Below are positions 1 to 7,632 of a DNA stretch of 32,681 bases, piece after piece. The notes beneath the pieces were generated by a model. The model was not told where the DNA came from and searched no databases. It saw only the letters and a list, made by a program, of their open reading frames with translations. The DNA comes from Balneolaceae bacterium. Lineage in GTDB: Bacteria; Bacteroidota; Rhodothermia; Balneolales; Balneolaceae. Within the stretch, counting starts at the first letter, position 1. Each line of letters begins with the position of its first letter. The position numbers were made by a program, and so were the translations under genes. Location: positions 1-32,681 of the forward strand of contig JAFIES010000107.1 of assembly GCA_020832415.1 (NCBI GenBank). The letters run 5' to 3'.

Positions 1-101
1 TAAAAGGCTCTGTATCGCAGCTTCAAGGATTTCTTCTTTTTTTTGTTTGCCCACAGGCACCCATTCATCCGAGTTGTAAAACTCGATGATTTTTTTTTAG
101 T
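1..101 (-). pseudogene. Partial CopG-type antitoxin gene, truncated copy A
   Basis: Read on the minus strand, this stretch encodes a piece of the same protein as the antitoxin-like gene at 2324-2458 (shared motif SDEWVPVG, then a Lys/Glu-rich helix). Positions 1-92 align without gaps to 2339-2430, with three substitutions up to about position 90 and decay after 92. In the antitoxin frame, a stop codon lies just upstream of the conserved part and no start codon is present, so this copy has lost its 5' end. Its 3' part lies outside the window. It is a remnant and forms a direct repeat with the second copy. Confidence 0.6.
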
Positions 102-282
102 GTTTAGTTATTAATGATTACAATAAACTTTACTTTTTAAAGTCTAATTTATTATTTCTATGAAAATTAGCTTAAAGGTAAAAAATAGATTTCCTGAATA
201 AGCTATTGCGAAAGAAATTTACATGATTAATTATGTTCACAGGTGAGAATGACATTATCTAAAACATAAATCTAAAGCGACT
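102..282. other. AT-rich gap, no gene seen
   Basis: This is the leader region of the HTH gene that follows. I see no open frame, hairpin or convincing promoter match. It probably holds the promoter of the repeat-containing HTH gene, but no element can be singled out. Confidence 0.3.
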
Positions 283-557
283 ATGAATGAGAGTAGAAAA
301 CAAACAAACAAACAAACAAACAAACAAACAATCAATCAGTTTCTTATCTGCAAGCGTTAAAGAAACTGACACCCCGGGAGTCAGAGGTTTTGGATTTAAT
401 TGAAAAAGGTTTTACAAGTAAAGAGATAGCCGCAAATCTCTACCTTTCAGTAAGAACTGTTCATGCGCACAAAAGAAGTATTTGTGAAAAACTGGATCTT
501 TCCGGAAGAGGTGCTTTACATAAATGGCTTTGGATGGCAAGAAACAATAATTTTTAG
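283..557 (+). pseudogene. LuxR/NarL-type HTH regulator, out of frame at a tetranucleotide repeat (possibly phase-variable)
   Basis: Positions 363-557 encode a complete LuxR-type helix-turn-helix domain beginning KLTPRESEVLDLIEKG, with the recognition-helix region LSVRTVHAHKRSI, ending at TAG 555-557. In this frame there is no ATG, GTG or TTG between the in-frame TAG at 294-296 and the domain. Upstream, ATG 283 and ATG 287 both open into a run of eight AAAC units (298-329). From ATG 283 the current frame stops at 358-360 after 25 codons. Gain of one unit puts ATG 283 in frame with the HTH; loss of one unit puts ATG 287 in frame. The in-frame product would be about 90 residues, a stand-alone DNA-binding domain with an N-terminal Gln/Thr/Asn/Lys repeat. 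As sequenced, the gene is off. It could equally be a decayed gene or carry a repeat-length sequencing error. Confidence 0.7.
298..329 (+). repeat. Tetranucleotide microsatellite (AAAC)8
   Basis: There are eight perfect AAAC units (equivalently seven CAAA units at 301-328), followed by two imperfect CAAT units (329-336). The tract lies just inside the 5' end of the LuxR-type gene, where each unit gained or lost shifts the frame by one base. Intragenic tetranucleotide tracts of this sort drive translational phase variation in other bacteria, for example the CAAT repeats of the Haemophilus lic genes. Confidence 0.85.
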
Positions 558-683: not shown

Positions 684-976
684 ATGATGAAACTGATTTC
701 AATTTTTCTCCTTCTTTTATTGGAAATTACGTAACCAATTCCAACAGCATAAACTTTGACTTGGAGTCTAATTACGGATTTTTTGAGGTAAATAATGTAT
801 CTGTTGATTACTTAGTTGAACTGGATTCAGAAATGCTGATGTGTTGTGCTAATACACCATGTGCCAATGCACTTTATCAGTGTAATCTAGCTGGTGGAGA
901 TCCTAATGATTGTATAGATGAGTATTACGACTGTCTTGATGACTTATATGGCTCCGATCCAGGCGAGCATCCCTAA
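684..976 (+). pseudogene. Small secreted cysteine-rich peptide, split by a one-base frameshift
   Basis: ATG 684/687 follows a good ribosome-binding sequence (AAAGAGG, 673-679) and opens a signal-peptide-like segment, MMKLISIFLLLLL, that stops at 732-734. The remainder continues in another frame to TAA 974-976. One extra T in the TTTT run at 715-718 would join them into a peptide of about 97 residues: hydrophobic leader, an acidic stretch, then six cysteines (CC, C, C, C, C) and a Gly/Pro-rich tail. As it stands, the cysteine part could only be made from a downstream start such as TTG 761, without the leader. The layout (short leader peptide, Cys-rich C-terminus, next to a six-bladed propeller gene) recalls NVEALA-type peptides of Bacteroidota, but I see no clear NVEALA motif. 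No function is assigned. Confidence 0.55.
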
Positions 977-1032
977 AGCTTTTGAGAAATTTCAATAAGC
1001 TTTAATGCTTTCAACAATTATTCTAAACTTCT

Positions 1033-1064
1033 GCTGGTTCTTAATTTTTGGAACCAGCTTTTAA
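1033..1064 (+). terminator. Intrinsic terminator after the small-peptide gene
   Basis: An 8-bp perfect stem (GCTGGTTC 1033-1040 with GAACCAGC 1051-1058) and a 10-nt loop are followed by TTTTAATT. It lies between the peptide gene and the propeller gene, whose ATG is only 19 bp downstream. It could therefore also attenuate read-through into that gene. Confidence 0.7.
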
Positions 1065-1082
1065 TTATTAAAATTTTGAAAA

Positions 1083-2192
1083 ATGCTTTCAAGTCTTCTT
1101 TTTGTCCTTGTTTTTCTATCATCCTTTCTGAGTTATGATTTTCTTGTAAATGACAAAGACAAAAAGGATGTGGTTATCATACTTAAAAAAGAATTTGTTA
1201 TTAAAGATAGCGAGGATTTTTTTATACAGAATATTTCTGATGCAGCCATTACACCAATCGGTCATATAATTTTTCTATCCAGCAGACAACATCGGGCATT
1301 TGTTTTTGATGAAAATGGAGATTTTCTACAATCATTTGGGAATCAGGGGCGTGGCCCGGCAGAATTTAACAGGCCTTCCATGATAGAAGTGGGGCCGGAT
1401 GGAACGATTTTTATACATGACCCAAGAAATTCCAGAATTTCAGTGTGGAATTTAGATTATGAACATGAAGCAGAATTTGAGTTTATGAGAGGGTGGAATA
1501 CCTATTTCATAAACAATAGTCAGGATATTTTTATTTGGTCTCAACCTCACCAACCGCTACCAAATGGATCTTTTGCCCTGATTTTGTTTAAGATAGAGAA
1601 AAGTCCCTGGCGGGCGGAGATTTTTAGAACATTTGAATATGTTGATCATAATGATCAACATGAATTTTTGAGTACCTGGAGTAATATCGAAATAACTGAT
1701 CAAGGTAATTTGATTGCTACAGAAGGCACTGATGAAGGTAGTTATTTTCTTTATATAGTTGATGAATATGGTGAGATGATTAACAAATTTGGAAGAAAAG
1801 TAGATCAGCCTATGCATACACCTGAGAGAAGTACTGAACTACAGCAGATGAGAATCCGTGCCGGCATAGCAGAAAATGATCGTGCCACAGGAAGCCGATC
1901 ATCTACATCAGGTGGTCAAGCACAATCTGAATTGGTACCAAAACCTTATTTCATAAACCTTGAGATCGACAGCAATAACTATCTTTGGGTCCACCGGAAC
2001 AAGGAGTTTGGTCAGCAGGAAGAGATCGATATCTATACATTGAAAGGCGAATATAAAACAACAGTCACCATTCCACCGACAGAAAATGAATACCGTCTTC
2101 TGGGTATTTATGATGAAAGAGTTTTATTCCGTGTAACTGAGCCTGACGAGACTCCTTCCCTCCATGTATACCGGATTGAATATGTAGAATAA
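1083..2192 (+). CDS. Secreted six-bladed beta-propeller protein (NHL/DUF4934-like)
   Basis: This is a 369-residue protein. The N-terminal hydrophobic stretch (about residues 1-20) looks like a signal peptide without a lipobox cysteine, so the protein should be periplasmic or exported. After residue 50 it shows propeller-blade repeats: a strand ending in a short turn such as DENGDFLQSFGNQGRGPAEF, then PDGTIFIHDPRNSRI and DEYGEMINKFGRK. The GxGxGPxEF motif is typical of six-bladed NHL-like propellers of Bacteroidota. A low-complexity Ser/Gly/Gln stretch lies near residues 262-282. Such propellers bind peptides or other ligands; no catalytic residues can be named. The small Cys-rich peptide gene immediately upstream suggests a functional pair. 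The 3' end faces the antitoxin-like pseudogene tail-to-tail. Confidence 0.75.
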   Translation: MLSSLLFVLVFLSSFLSYDFLVNDKDKKDVVIILKKEFVIKDSEDFFIQNISDAAITPIGHIIFLSSRQHRAFVFDENGDFLQSFGNQGRGPAEFNRPSMIEVGPDGTIFIHDPRNSRISVWNLDYEHEAEFEFMRGWNTYFINNSQDIFIWSQPHQPLPNGSFALILFKIEKSPWRAEIFRTFEYVDHNDQHEFLSTWSNIEITDQGNLIATEGTDEGSYFLYIVDEYGEMINKFGRKVDQPMHTPERSTELQQMRIRAGIAENDRATGSRSSTSGGQAQSELVPKPYFINLEIDSNNYLWVHRNKEFGQQEEIDIYTLKGEYKTTVTIPPTENEYRLLGIYDERVLFRVTEPDETPSLHVYRIEYVE

Positions 2193-2458
2193 GTTTTGCT
2201 TCCGGTTTCAATTCTCCCTTGCTATACTTGTGAATGATACTTGAAATCAGTGTCTGATACGGCATACCCTCTTCCATGGCTTTTACCTGGATGTCGTGGT
2301 AATCTTGTTCAGTAAGCCGAATATTAATTCGTTTTTTTTAAAAGGCTCTGTTTCGCAGCTTCAAGGATTTCTTCTTTTTTTTGTTCGCCCACAGGCACCC
2401 ATTCATCCGAGTTGTAAGACTCGATGATTTCTTTTTCGTCTTTATCTATATAATCCAT
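2065..2458 (-). pseudogene. CopG/ribbon-helix-helix-type antitoxin gene, frameshifted copy B
   Basis: From ATG 2458 the frame reads MDYIDKDEKEIIESYNSDEW and on to a Lys-rich helix, but stops at TAA 2324-2326 after 44 codons. Removing one A from the eight-A run (complement of 2332-2339) joins it to a second half reading RINIRLTEQDYHDIQVKA, MEEGMPYQTLISSIIHKY, a typical CopG-type ribbon-helix-helix antitoxin fold. Such antitoxins are usually 80-95 residues; this frame instead runs on antisense into the propeller gene to 2065, so the natural C-terminus seems replaced or the stop lost. No toxin gene lies beside it. The truncated N-terminal product might still be made. The family call is from motif memory. 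Confidence 0.65.
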
Positions 2459-2501
2459 ATTCACTCTTTGTTTAAATACTGTTTGGGTGTTTTTCTATCT
2501 A

Positions 2502-2583
2502 TCTCGCAGAAGTACGCAGACGGTTTTTGAGAATGAATCATCAGCGCTCGTCTGCGAGTTCGTCTGTGCCCGTCTGCGAGAAG
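2502..2583. repeat. Intergenic repeat with inverted CGCAGACG/CGTCTGCG units
   Basis: One CGCAGACG unit (2514-2522) lies opposite three forward CGTCTGyG units at about 2549-2579. They can fold into alternative hairpins. The unit resembles dispersed REP-like intergenic repeats, but only this cluster is visible in the window. No ORF crosses it. Confidence 0.45.
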
Positions 2584-2706: not shown

Positions 2707-5700
2707 TTAATGCCCGTGGCCATGCCCGCTGCCGCCTGTGATGGCGTGCCAGTCAAACTGTTCGCTGTATCCTTCACGTTCCCACCAAAATGGCAGGCGT
2801 TCTCGTGTATGATTGCCAATCTCATTCATTGTTGAAGAGTCATAAAGTCGGCCGTTAATCATCGTATAAACAACGTTTTCTGTATCGAAAATGTCATCAA
2901 GCGGATTTCCATCAATCACTATTAAATCAGCAAGTTTACCTGATTCGAGTGACCCGATATGATCGCCCATTCCGATGTATTTGGCAGGGTTGATTGTAGC
3001 AGTCCGAAGCGCATCGTGATTACTCATTCCACCTTGTGTGAACATCCAGATCTCCCAGTGAGCTGCAAGCCCCTGAAGCTGTCCGTGCCCCCCGATGTTT
3101 ACAAGTATTCCACGATCATGAAGTTCTTTGGCAGCAGCAGCACTTTGAAAGTGGCCAATTTCATACTCTTCGTAGGGAACCATCGTGCGGTGGCGTGAAC
3201 GAGAATCAACTACACCACGAGGAGTGAATGTAAGTAAACGCTCTTTCTCCCATACATTGGTGTGTTGATACCAGTAGAATTCGCCACTCATGCTTCCATA
3301 GTTTACAACAAGGGTAGGAGTGTAACCCACATTACTGGCTCCCCAGAGAGTGAGTACATCGTTATAGAGGGGATAGATCGGTACATTGTGCTCTATACCG
3401 GTATGGCCATCCAAAATCATGCTCATGTTATGGGTGAAGGTTGAACCGCCTTCAGGAACAACATTCACGCCCAGTTCCCGGGCAGCCTGCAGCACCTGCT
3501 GCCGCTGATCCCGCCGTGGCTGGTTATAACTCTTCACAGAGGTGGCACCAAAAGCCTGTGTACGGCGAATGGCAGATCGCGCATCTTCCAGGCTGTTGAT
3601 AACTGTTTTCTGCACATTTTCAGCTCCATACAGAATTCGTCCGGTTGAAAATATTCGCGGACCAATCATCGTACCGGAACGAACCATTTCTGCCTGAGAG
3701 AAAATCATCTCCGTGTTTGAGGATGGATCATGTACAGTTGTTACACCATAAGCAAGATTTGCAAAATATTCCCACTGCTGATTTGGACTCAATCCGCCTC
3801 GGAAATTGCCAATGTGGGCATGAGCATCCACAAATCCCGGCATCACAGTTTTACCTTCTGCATCCATCACATACGCATTCTCCGGAATCGAAACATCACC
3901 GGCAGAGCCCAAAGATTCTATTCTGTTGCCATTTATAACAATGGTTCCGTTCTCAATCACTTCATCACCATTCATTGTGATGATTCTTGCATTGGTAATC
4001 GCAACAACTCCGTCCGGCCTGTCAGTTTCAAGTTCAAGCCCTATAGAAATGCCTTGGCTGTCGCCAAGAGGCAGCTCTTCGTTCATGTCGCCATTGAGAA
4101 ACTCAAAAGCCTCTTTGAGCTCTACGGTGAAATACTCCTGACCCAGTGTCCAGTGCAGCTTTTGGCCATCATTTGACCAGTGCAGATTGTATCCTGCATC
4201 ACGGGCTACGTGAGTAACGGGAATGGCGCGTGTGCTTGCGCTCAGATCAATATCGGAGCCAACCTGTGGCATTGGTGCGATATACACTTTGTAAAGCTCA
4301 TGAAAAGCTACCCACTGATTATCGGGGCTTGGGGTGTATTCAAGGCCGTACTGTGATCTGAAATGGTGACGTTCGTCCTGGCCATTTAGGTCAACACTGC
4401 GGAAATTGGTTCCTTGCTGGAAGAAAATCCGATCTCCGGATGCATTATACATGGGGGAGTTTCCACCGGTTCGTATGAGTTTTTTCTCACCACCTGCTAC
4501 AGGCATTGTGTAGATTCCCGGATTTTGCGTGTAAGCATGCCCCTGATGGTTATTACCTGAATCACGCCGGAAAAGCAATGTCCTGCCATCCGGTGAAAAT
4601 GATGGTGTCCGGAAAATTCCTTTCTGGGTTGTTACTGTCTGAGGGGATGCCCTGCGCTGATCGAGCCTGAGTGTTTTGATCGCTCCAAGATCATCGTCAC
4701 TCCATGTAACCCAGGCAAGCGTGTTTCCATCAGGTGAGAAGACAGGCTCAAACTCGAGATTAGATTCATTTGTAAGGCGCTCAGGGGTTCCGTTGGGAAG
4801 ATCTTTTTTCCACAAATATCCTGCTGCATTGAATACAAGTGTACTGCCATCCGGTGAGGTAATTGCATGGCGCACGGCTTTTGCAGTGAATGTGTCAGGG
4901 GCTGGGTCGAACTCAAAGTGTACAACATCTGCTAATTGATGATTGACCTGTGCAGTGAACGGGATCTCTTCAACAGCGTAATCATTCACATTCAGTTTAT
5001 GGATGCCACCCTGTGCCCAAAAAATCAGGCTTTCACCATCAGGAGTCCAGTTGAAATTGGTATAGGGGCCAAAAATTGCCCACGCCTGCTGCTGATCTTT
5101 GCTCATATTGTCGAAAACAGGACGTTCAATACCTGTTTCAAGGTCCCGAATGTAGAGCACAGATTTTGTACGGACTCTTTTAATAAAAGCCAGTTTGTTT
5201 CCATCAGGTGAAACGGTAGGAGAGATGGCTCCGCCCGGGCCGCCGGTTACCCGTTCTACTCTTCCTTCTTCACGGTCATAGCGGTTGATTACATAGATCT
5301 GGCTGTTGGGATCCTTATTGTATTGGAAAAATCCACCCGGATAGACATCCTGGCTGTAATAAACGTAGCGGCCATCAGGTGATACAAAAGGCTGGCCTTT
5401 ATCTTGTTGATCATTTGGCCGCTCTGTTAACTGGATTCCGGATCCGCCGGTAATGTGATACATCCAGATTTCACCGGCTCCGAGTGAACGGGCTGATGTA
5501 AAGTGCTTTCTTGCGATCAGGTAATTGCCATCCGGTGTCCAGAATGCGTTGTTTAGCAGCCGAAAGCTTTCATTGGTAATTTGCCGGGCATCGGAACCAT
5601 CACGGTTCATTACCCAGATGTTATCACCGCCGCCGGCATCACTTGTGAAGGATATTTTTGAACCATCGGGGCTAAAACGCGGCTGAATTTCATACGCAAG

Positions 5701-5952
5701 ACTTTCGCGAATAACGGTTGCCTCACCACCGGTTATTGGCATTATGTATATGTTTCCGAGCAGATCGAACACTATTTCGGACCCATCCGGACTCACATCA
5801 AGGTTCATCCAGGTACCTTCGCTGGTTTCAAAGCTGATTTCAGTATAATCAGCACGATGCTGGGTAACATCCCAGGCGTCATCTCCATTGTCTTGTGCAA
5901 GCAGTGAGATTGGTAATAGAATTGATATGGTAAGCAGTAAAAATCGTTTCAT
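2707..5952 (-). CDS. Secreted TolB-like beta-propeller / amidohydrolase fusion
   Basis: This is a 1081-residue protein with a signal peptide (about 1-19, cut near LLAQ). Residues 30-600 contain repeated PD40/TolB-type blades (motifs SPDGSKISF, SPDGRYVYYS, SPDGNTLAWV, SPDGRTLLFRR). Residues 640-1060 are an amidohydrolase-superfamily metal-dependent hydrolase: D-A-H711-A-H713 after the first strand, a candidate carboxylated lysine K807 (SVKSYNQ), metal histidines H841 and H855 (IEHN), and a C-terminal LADLIVIDGNPL block. The position that usually holds Asp reads GGH956GQ. The C-terminus ends in a Gly-His tail (GSGHGHGH) that could bind metal. Known relatives are exported amidohydrolases, some peptidase- or prolidase-like. 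The substrate is unknown. The gene appears to be transcribed alone. Confidence 0.85.
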   Translation of the reverse strand: MKRFLLLTISILLPISLLAQDNGDDAWDVTQHRADYTEISFETSEGTWMNLDVSPDGSEIVFDLLGNIYIMPITGGEATVIRESLAYEIQPRFSPDGSKISFTSDAGGGDNIWVMNRDGSDARQITNESFRLLNNAFWTPDGNYLIARKHFTSARSLGAGEIWMYHITGGSGIQLTERPNDQQDKGQPFVSPDGRYVYYSQDVYPGGFFQYNKDPNSQIYVINRYDREEGRVERVTGGPGGAISPTVSPDGNKLAFIKRVRTKSVLYIRDLETGIERPVFDNMSKDQQQAWAIFGPYTNFNWTPDGESLIFWAQGGIHKLNVNDYAVEEIPFTAQVNHQLADVVHFEFDPAPDTFTAKAVRHAITSPDGSTLVFNAAGYLWKKDLPNGTPERLTNESNLEFEPVFSPDGNTLAWVTWSDDDLGAIKTLRLDQRRASPQTVTTQKGIFRTPSFSPDGRTLLFRRDSGNNHQGHAYTQNPGIYTMPVAGGEKKLIRTGGNSPMYNASGDRIFFQQGTNFRSVDLNGQDERHHFRSQYGLEYTPSPDNQWVAFHELYKVYIAPMPQVGSDIDLSASTRAIPVTHVARDAGYNLHWSNDGQKLHWTLGQEYFTVELKEAFEFLNGDMNEELPLGDSQGISIGLELETDRPDGVVAITNARIITMNGDEVIENGTIVINGNRIESLGSAGDVSIPENAYVMDAEGKTVMPGFVDAHAHIGNFRGGLSPNQQWEYFANLAYGVTTVHDPSSNTEMIFSQAEMVRSGTMIGPRIFSTGRILYGAENVQKTVINSLEDARSAIRRTQAFGATSVKSYNQPRRDQRQQVLQAARELGVNVVPEGGSTFTHNMSMILDGHTGIEHNVPIYPLYNDVLTLWGASNVGYTPTLVVNYGSMSGEFYWYQHTNVWEKERLLTFTPRGVVDSRSRHRTMVPYEEYEIGHFQSAAAAKELHDRGILVNIGGHGQLQGLAAHWEIWMFTQGGMSNHDALRTATINPAKYIGMGDHIGSLESGKLADLIVIDGNPLDDIFDTENVVYTMINGRLYDSSTMNEIGNHTRERLPFWWEREGYSEQFDWHAITGGSGHGHGH

Positions 5953-6309: not shown

Positions 6310-7632
6310 ATGAAATTTCTATTAGCAGTACTTTTTTTAATAACAGCATTAGCTGAAACATCTGATGCGCAATCCGAACCTCCCTTTGGAATGGGGGAGC
6401 TTGAGGCATACTCCGTATTTCTTGACGGTTACAGATCAGGAGATTATGAGCTTGCAATCAATTTTGGAGAATGGATGCTTGAAGCGAAACCAACAGAAAT
6501 AGAAGGGCATGAAAACTTCTCATTAGAGAGACAGTTTGACCGGATGATTGATACTTACCTGATGGCTGCAGAAGGTGAGAGTGATCCTTCACAAACAACT
6601 GCATACCTTGAAAAAGCTGAGAAAGCTTTTGAAACTCTGTACGAAACGTTTGATGAAAGTGAGATAGACCTGTATGATTGGTATTTGAAGCAGGGGCGCT
6701 TTTATCATGAAAATAATGAACAGATGAGCGCAACTATAGATGATGCATTCAAAAAGTATAAAAAATTATACGAGATGGATCATCAGCGGTTTGCAGAAGA
6801 GGGTGATGGGTTTTTTGCTATGGTTTTGTTGAATGAAACAGCAAACTCCGGAGAACGGGACGAGGCAATGGAGATGATTGATAATTTGGAAGAGTTTGCC
6901 TCTATGGAACTTCTCGATGCAATTGCTGAGATACGAGAATCACTTTTTGAGAATCCCGAAGAGCGCATAGAATTTATTGAATCACGATTTGCAGCTGCAG
7001 GAGAAGCTGAACGGGAAGAGATGCTGGGTGATCTGGTTCAGCTTTATGATGAGATAAATGATTCGGAAAAAGCTGCTGAATCAGCCATTCAACTATATGA
7101 GATGAACCCAAATTATCAGAACACTCGTTATGTAGCTGATATGCTTTTGTCAGATGGAAATTATTCTGAAGCAATCGATTATCTGATCGAATCAAAAGAG
7201 CTTGCTGAAAATGATACAGACCGCAAAGAGATAGCACTGCAAATTGCTGAGTCTTACCAGCAGACTGATCAGTTTGAAGAGGCCAGAGATTATGTGCAAA
7301 GAGCACTGGCTATTGATGAAACGTATGGAGAGGCTTATTTGAGAATGTCTGCAATCTATGCGCGAACCATTTCAAACTGCACCGGTGGAGATGTACTTGC
7401 CCGTGAAGACAGAACCGTATATTGGCTGGTAGTTGATTATCTTGAAAAAGCAGCAGAACACGACCCATCACTCGCATCAACTGCCAACAATCGTGCAGAG
7501 TCTTACACCGATGCGATGCCGAGTGCAGAAGATAAGTTTTTTAACGACTGGGAAGATGGCGACTCATTTACTATTGATGGTGAATTGAGCCCGTGCTATG
7601 CCTGGATTAATGAAACTACAACGGTGAGATAA
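6310..7632 (+). CDS. Exported TPR-repeat protein
   Basis: This is a 440-residue protein from ATG 6310. That start is chosen because it begins a clean signal peptide, MKFLLAVLFLITALAETSDA, whereas the in-frame ATG 6241 would place 23 polar residues before it. The body is almost wholly alpha-helical and acidic, with degenerate TPR units; the clearest are about residues 235-365 (units such as YQQTDQFEEARDYVQRALAI). Cysteines occur only near SNCTGG and SPCYAW at the C-terminal end and could form a disulfide. It likely acts as a periplasmic protein-protein scaffold. Partner and pathway are unknown. A strong terminator follows. Confidence 0.75.
   Translation: MKFLLAVLFLITALAETSDAQSEPPFGMGELEAYSVFLDGYRSGDYELAINFGEWMLEAKPTEIEGHENFSLERQFDRMIDTYLMAAEGESDPSQTTAYLEKAEKAFETLYETFDESEIDLYDWYLKQGRFYHENNEQMSATIDDAFKKYKKLYEMDHQRFAEEGDGFFAMVLLNETANSGERDEAMEMIDNLEEFASMELLDAIAEIRESLFENPEERIEFIESRFAAAGEAEREEMLGDLVQLYDEINDSEKAAESAIQLYEMNPNYQNTRYVADMLLSDGNYSEAIDYLIESKELAENDTDRKEIALQIAESYQQTDQFEEARDYVQRALAIDETYGEAYLRMSAIYARTISNCTGGDVLAREDRTVYWLVVDYLEKAAEHDPSLASTANNRAESYTDAMPSAEDKFFNDWEDGDSFTIDGELSPCYAWINETTTVR

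Follow-up and report, generated by a model that had tools for sequence, protein, structure and literature searches.

A small LuxR-type regulator gene in a Balneolaceae bacterium lies behind an (AAAC)8 array preceded by two start codons in different reading frames, and related species show the same design at regulators belonging to two HTH families. These data are most likely explained by phase variation at the translational level, in which strand slippage moves cassette-specific regulators among three states, although there are no data on length variation within a culture, switching or binding. Control of the neighbouring peptide and propeller genes by these regulators is supported less firmly than the switch itself, with binding, direction of regulation and cassette function all inferred.

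Array, start codons and reading frames in the window

The window, the whole stretch of 32,681 nt that was analysed, is the entire contig G000:C8 of the organism's own genome, a 3.94-Mb draft (G000) of 152 contigs that is 95% complete. The features discussed below are as follows:

1-111, minus strand: antitoxin-like gene, partial copy at the contig start (direct repeat of 2339-2449, 93%)
283-285, plus strand: ATG1, in frame with the HTH at 9 units
287-289, plus strand: ATG2, in frame with the HTH at 7 units
297-557, plus strand: small LuxR-type HTH regulator, open frame, startless (OFF) as assembled (PF00196)
298-329, plus strand: (AAAC)8 tetranucleotide array, proposed slippage site (sequence reading and TRF)
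578-593, no strand assigned: first palindrome-like 16-nt element, TAGGTATATCTGCCTA, operator-like (inferred)
600-615, no strand assigned: second 16-nt palindrome, TAGGTAAGCTTGCCTA, separated from the first by AAATAA at a spacing of 22 nt, operator-like (inferred)
684-976, plus strand: small Cys-rich secreted-peptide gene, frame-broken as sequenced
1083-2192, plus strand: six-bladed beta-propeller protein, 369 aa (PF17170 DUF5128)
2180-2458, minus strand: antitoxin-like gene, frame interrupted at an A run
2707-5952, minus strand: amidohydrolase/TolB-like gene, its 3' end a site of cassette presence or absence among relatives

Translation of frame 297-557 revealed no ATG, GTG or TTG upstream of the HTH domain. 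The frames opened by ATG 283 and ATG 287 end at stop codons 358-360 and 401-403, respectively, and in silico neither ATG reaches the HTH frame with the eight units present; with seven units the HTH is read from ATG 287 as part of an 88-aa product, and with nine units from ATG 283 as part of a 92-aa product. The base following ATG2 is A and the third frame is therefore closed by a TGA at 288-290. The initial annotation had claimed that an intact LuxR HTH domain lacks a start in its own frame, with ATGs 283 and 287 lying in different frames before (AAAC)8, and this held on reading and translation of the sequence. Its further claim, that one unit gained brings ATG 283 into frame and one unit lost ATG 287, the present count giving neither, held in silico.

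The regulator matched PF00196 (GerE/LuxR HTH) with 58.3 bits, above the curated cut-off of 23.5. The array was absent from all 100 dinucleotide shuffles of the window, even with three mismatches allowed, and is therefore not a chance occurrence. Two features expected of a contingency locus are present: a short tandem repeat, (AAAC)8, with a unit that is not a multiple of three lies within the 5' coding region, and one-unit changes shift the gene in or out of frame (in silico, and likewise at relatives).

A pattern of four AAAC units had only two matches in the draft genome, in the window and on contig C2, and both arrays are of eight units and stand ahead of a small HTH regulator. At the C2 locus two ATGs four bases apart precede the array and a small AraC-like regulator, which is OFF as assembled; a Cys-rich peptide frame and then a propeller gene come after it. 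A further regulator, on C26, carries three copies of an 8-nt unit with ATGs in two frames and is ON as assembled.

Arrays and two-frame leaders across the family

When 92 family genomes were scanned for (CCAA)>=5 and (AAAC)>=5, no other repeat units being included, 21 arrays (15 CCAA and 6 AAAC) were found in 13 genomes. Eighteen of the 21 are located at the N-terminus of small stand-alone regulators, 13 of them LuxR-type and five AraC-type, and the remaining three comprise two cut by contig ends (G002:C3 and G024:C182) and one before a lipoprotein-like ORF (G036). Arrays at or near contig ends numbered four of 21. Outside the family, 36 genomes of the same order contained no CCAA arrays; AAAC was not covered there. 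Among the array-bearing AraC-type regulators, G025, G020b and G022b matched PF12833 (cut-off 33.6) with 62.5, 48.6 and 35.2 bits, respectively; those of G000:C2 (27.5 bits) and G002 (27.8 bits) fell below the cut-off and are called AraC-like from their similarity to G022b. The LuxR-type regulator at G021:C89 matched PF00196 with 59.0 bits.

Unit numbers across related loci ranged from 5 to 10, five being the scan minimum. Three AraC-like orthologues carry 8, 8 and 7 units, and the array of 8-nt units at C26 differs from that of its G002 orthologue by 24 nt (by eye); no conspecific strain was compared, and the genomes searched yielded no orthologue of the regulator in the window itself. A survey of small LuxR genes (open frame <=135 aa) yielded at least 37 loci in the 92 family genomes. 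Among the 37 examined, arrays of a tetranucleotide or 8-nt unit stand at the gene start in 13 and are lacking in 24, and five have an upstream G run.

To be counted as part of a two-frame leader, an ATG had to lie <=60 nt before the array and be open to the array end. For the 20 tetranucleotide arrays so examined together with C26 (G021:C89, whose contig starts within the array, was left out), ATGs occupied exactly two frames in 17 of 21 cases. The four failures were G024c, with its second ATG 87 nt away, G014, G036 and G046, where AACT units close every frame and the array is unreadable. Two-frame ATGs were found in 24/241 control ordinary ORFs in a 35-nt window and in 70/241 in a 100-nt window. 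The second ATG lay in the +1 frame in all 17 two-frame cases, compared with 18 of 24 control pairs in the same order. This ATG order is only mildly unusual, and even with independent loci its chance would be about 0.008; closure of the third frame by ATGA is a possible explanation, yet that A is present in only 13 of the 17 (by eye).

Of the 17 regulators that could be classified, 13 had no in-frame start as assembled and were scored OFF. These were the LuxR-type regulators of the window, G017a, G017b, G124a, G024b, G024c, G014 and G022 (the last with an in-frame TTG located after the array) and the AraC-type regulators of C2, G025, G020b, G022b and G002. The other four, G020, C26, G124b and G015b, were ON, and five arrays (G021:C89, G046, G002:C3, G024:C182 and G036) could not be classified. 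Against an expectation of one third, the OFF excess gave a binomial value of 0.0003, although it had been noticed before the test, and many of the loci are paralogues so that the counts are not independent. Neutral slippage predicts about two thirds ON, and selection, a cost or an error in the model must therefore be invoked.

The three AraC-like orthologues (G000:C2, G002:C157 and G022:C14), all OFF in their assemblies, gave pairwise dN/dS values of 0.175, 0.294 and 0.157 (NG86, 127-129 codons), with dS of 0.9-2.2 and thus partly saturated. These values indicate that purifying selection has maintained the HTH frame in these orthologues, and selection at the protein level, on a frame for which all three assemblies lack a start, fits intermittent expression rather than a dead gene. 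The C26 pair gave a dN/dS of 0.515 from few changes.

Several observations stand apart from the regulator survey. The G036 array, (CCAA)8 at L137 1200-1231 (G036:C349), is immediately 5' of the lipoprotein-like secreted ORF and has a single upstream ATG; this ORF could conceivably encode a phase-variable surface protein. The end of G002:C3 (L139) and the start of G002:C157 (L140) have a common 31-nt leader with 9 and 8 AAAC units, respectively, and then continue differently. These contig ends were considered as evidence of mixed lengths and are not proof of it, as they perhaps represent two cassettes with one leader. Four named loci matched the small regulator, three in Balneolaceae MAGs and one on a contig filed under a cyanobacterium, and it is from these matches that the surveyed family is called Balneolaceae. 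The latter (L130), a 5.5-kb contig under Pleurocapsales LEGE 10410, bears a Balneolaceae-like cassette with a G10 run and may be contamination of that assembly.

Operator-like sites, downstream genes and cassette exchange

A strict tandem 16-nt element with copies 22 nt apart and core TAAAATAA was found 10-30 nt from the regulator stop at 10 of 38 loci, the window included, and these 10 loci represent all 9 distinct sequences matching the strict element among the loci examined. Other groups of loci have other palindromes, such as TACCCAC...GTGGGTA and CCCCTAAAATAATAGGGG. The best inverted repeat after the regulator was reached by <=5/100 shuffles in 18 of 37 loci and was not unusual in the other 19; for the window inverted repeat at that edge the figure was 5/100. 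Similarity of the downstream region followed HTH similarity (Mantel r 0.61, 0/5000 permutations, 37 loci), a correlation that could reflect co-evolving operators but would fit common descent too. A reading of the palindromes as terminators was not excluded for the TACCCAC...GTGGGTA group, where a T run follows in some loci; no T run follows the window element. Among five AraC-type loci inspected by eye, direct repeats like CTCAAATYCGGAACA were seen at C2 (two), G022b (three) and G002 (degenerate), and none of that kind at G025 and G020b.

For 18 of the array-bearing regulators at least 1 kb of sequence was available on the downstream side, and a propeller gene lies there in 15. The three own-genome rows in this count are not independent because the profile was seeded with own-genome propellers. 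At the three misses (G124a, G022b and the AraC-type G002) there is a Cys-rich peptide ORF. Propellers also occur downstream of 16 of 24 array-less small LuxR loci, and the array is therefore not needed for the cassette. A crude rule identified a Cys-rich peptide at 11/18 loci, excluding a doubtful 47-aa hit at G022, with the peptide genes of the window and C2 frame-broken. The peptide families had no match above cut-off in Pfam (five peptides) or in NCBIfam (six; the lists overlap). A different arrangement was observed at G021:C89 (L135 375-2362). There the gene after the regulator encodes a 546-aa protein whose VKOR match is weak and falls below cut-off, and a peptide bearing a double-glycine-like leader is also present; another export route is one possibility suggested by this arrangement.

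The window propeller matched PF17170 (DUF5128/6-bladed propeller) with 40.8 bits, above the cut-off of 22.9, and is one of 13 propeller matches in the own genome. By our own reading, a Cys-rich peptide frame precedes the propeller in cassettes C8, C2, C26, C109 and C140. In the window the signal-peptide frame (to 734) differs from the Cys-rich frame (671-976), so the gene is broken as sequenced, and the window cassette is possibly partly dead; with the C2 peptide gene also frame-broken, the same may be true of that cassette. The signal-peptide frame of the C2 peptide ends at a T10 run (L069, reverse strand, 6636-6645; G000:C2), which might be either a second switch layer or decay. Cassettes C109 and C140 have a G8 run only, and such runs occur at 10 other genome sites too; with only 2/12 own-genome runs of >=8 G lying within cassettes, poly-G as a general second switch was dropped. 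G runs of 6-10 at a similar position upstream of the regulator in five surveyed loci and L130 (G6 and G7 by eye) are suggestive, but in the own genome no conclusion is drawn from such runs.

The window cassette is flanked by antitoxin-like gene fragments (1-111 and 2339-2449) that are 93% identical, the right-hand copy being broken at the A run. We take gene 2180-2458, from our own reading, to encode a ribbon-helix-helix type antitoxin, and the name amidohydrolase/TolB-like for the product of gene 2707-5952 is likewise our own reading. A cassette is present at the 3' end of this latter gene in six of 19 readable genomes (G000, G002, G003, G008, G021 and G024), and none was found within the 1.9-8.2 kb examined at that gene end in the other 13; G018 and G016, with stretches too short to be read, are outside the 19. 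Partial 3' copies of the gene adjoin cassettes in G001, G021 and G024.

Window positions 1019-2518 were 98.7-100% identical to G002:C151 (L191, L163) in 150-nt steps, and the propeller was identical to that of G002 over 370 aligned residues. The adjoining gene was 67-81% identical between G002 and the window, and genes further along the same contig 77-79%. Near-identity of half of the cassette beside neighbouring genes at about 75-79% points to a recent exchange between the two species. Because the G002 contig starts only at the equivalent of window position 1019, the regulator and array of this cassette in G002 are not visible. At C26 the own genome and G002 were 95-97% identical over some 4.4 kb including a flanking gene, so that exchange may extend beyond the cassettes.

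Proposed switch, rival readings and known systems

In the proposed mechanism, the array would act as a slipped-strand switch near the 5' end of the coding sequence for a stand-alone LuxR-type regulator, gain or loss of one 4-nt unit moving the HTH frame among an ATG1-read state (92 aa), an ATG2-read state (88 aa) and an unread state. From the OFF state at eight units, a slip in either direction would turn the regulator ON. Any difference in output between the ATG1 and ATG2 states is inferred only. Once made, the regulator would probably bind the tandem palindromes at 578-615, for which there are no binding data, and the bound regulator would control the adjoining cassette of Cys-rich peptide and six-bladed propeller, in a direction that is likewise inferred.

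The rival that survives best, though we consider it unlikely, is that the gene is dead, the array having drifted out of frame in a decaying cassette. In its favour, the window regulator is OFF in the assembly and the neighbouring peptide gene is frame-broken, relatives G001b, G008 and G003 have a stop inside the HTH match, and the G046 array is unreadable. Against it, the HTH frame is unbroken and its Pfam match is strong, dN/dS is 0.16-0.29 in the three OFF AraC-like orthologues, open two-frame ATGs are kept in 17/21 arrays and 4/17 regulators are ON. A second rival, that an assembly or sequencing miscount hides a true number of 7 or 9 units and a constitutively ON gene, is very unlikely: the genome is a draft of 152 contigs and 4/21 family arrays are at or near contig ends, but a miscount would need to yield the OFF phase in 13/17 regulators across several genomes, and reads of ordinary length would be expected to cross a 32-nt array. 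There is similarly very little to recommend a reading of the third frame by programmed ribosomal frameshifting, transcriptional slippage or a non-canonical start, with unit number nearly irrelevant, as the 13/17 regulators in one startless phase would be expected were that phase the working one, but 4/17 are in other phases and the arrays consist of AAAC, CCAA or an 8-nt unit, repeats not known to provide slippery heptamers or stimulatory structures.

Phase variation by slippage thus remains the preferred reading, and the proposal of the initial annotation that the regulator is a three-state phase-variable switch is supported by recurrence of the design at two HTH families in related species, the switching itself being inferred. 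Of the two outcomes it had named as refuting, a fixed repeat number was not observed among related loci, which differ (5-10 units), although neither reads nor conspecific strains were available; as to decay of the HTH frame, the three OFF AraC-like orthologues show purifying selection instead, the window's own regulator lying outside that comparison. It had known of no described case in the phylum, and a literature search for Balneolaceae with phase variation found none. The cassette architecture, operator-like sites, OFF excess and exchange between species go beyond what it had claimed.

The closest likeness is to lic1A and lic2A of Haemophilus influenzae, where at least two upstream ATGs, possibly differing in output, likewise accompany tetranucleotide repeats within the 5' part of the coding sequence. 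The lic2A initiation codons are described by Dixon 2007 (as cited in PMC6479036). The switched Haemophilus genes are lipooligosaccharide genes of a pathogen (PMC3938747, PMC2651432), whereas in Balneolaceae the genes concerned encode stand-alone regulators from two HTH families, every one with a cassette of its own next to it. A lic-type locus is defined by switching of a surface-glycan biosynthesis gene, a property that the window gene, which encodes a DNA-binding regulator, does not have, and the resemblance is one of mechanism only. Regulators are the switched genes in the case of the mga poly-C tract of group A Streptococcus (PMC11868660; mga paper PMC10330708) and of Bordetella frameshifts (PMC11868660). 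These, however, involve homopolymers in single regulators, and neither a two-ATG leader nor a paralogous set with local targets is described (relevant sections of PMC11868660). In phasevarions one switched gene, a phase-variable DNA methyltransferase, governs others (PMC11475388); these act via DNA methylation, whereas the route inferred here is a DNA-binding regulator acting locally, at an operator-like site close by. GerE consists of one HTH domain, some 70 aa long, and lacks a sensor domain. GerE-like stand-alone LuxR HTH proteins have the same architecture as the window regulator (PF00196), but the Balneolaceae regulators have a repeat-encoded N-terminus (KQTN or NQPT) and lie beside peptide/propeller cassettes.

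Literature searches combining tetranucleotide, AraC and phase-variable, or slipped-strand mispairing and LuxR family, returned no reports, subscription papers being mostly uncovered, and a looser search on Balneolaceae and phase variation gave no relevant title among the top results; this silence supports novelty only weakly. Most known cases of phase variation by simple repeats concern the surface genes of host-adapted pathogens (cf. reviews PMC11868660, PMC11475388). Balneolaceae are known from marine, saline and soda-lake settings.

A bolder reading is that of a contingency system through part of the Balneolaceae, in which exchangeable cassettes each have their own phase-variable regulator, private operators, a disulfide-rich peptide and a propeller partner, the OFF state serves as a hair-trigger, and LuxR- and AraC-type regulators reached the switch separately. 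We judge the balance to lie slightly against this version; if it were true, a clone would keep rare cells with different peptide/propeller sets, of potential use in competition, kin recognition or phage evasion. The narrower interpretation, in which a two-ATG, three-state switch recurs on small local regulators of two HTH types beside exchangeable secreted-peptide cassettes, would if true offer a concrete, testable case of random switching to diversify secreted products, and these loci would form a natural set for measuring how the arrangement of start codons affects switch bias.
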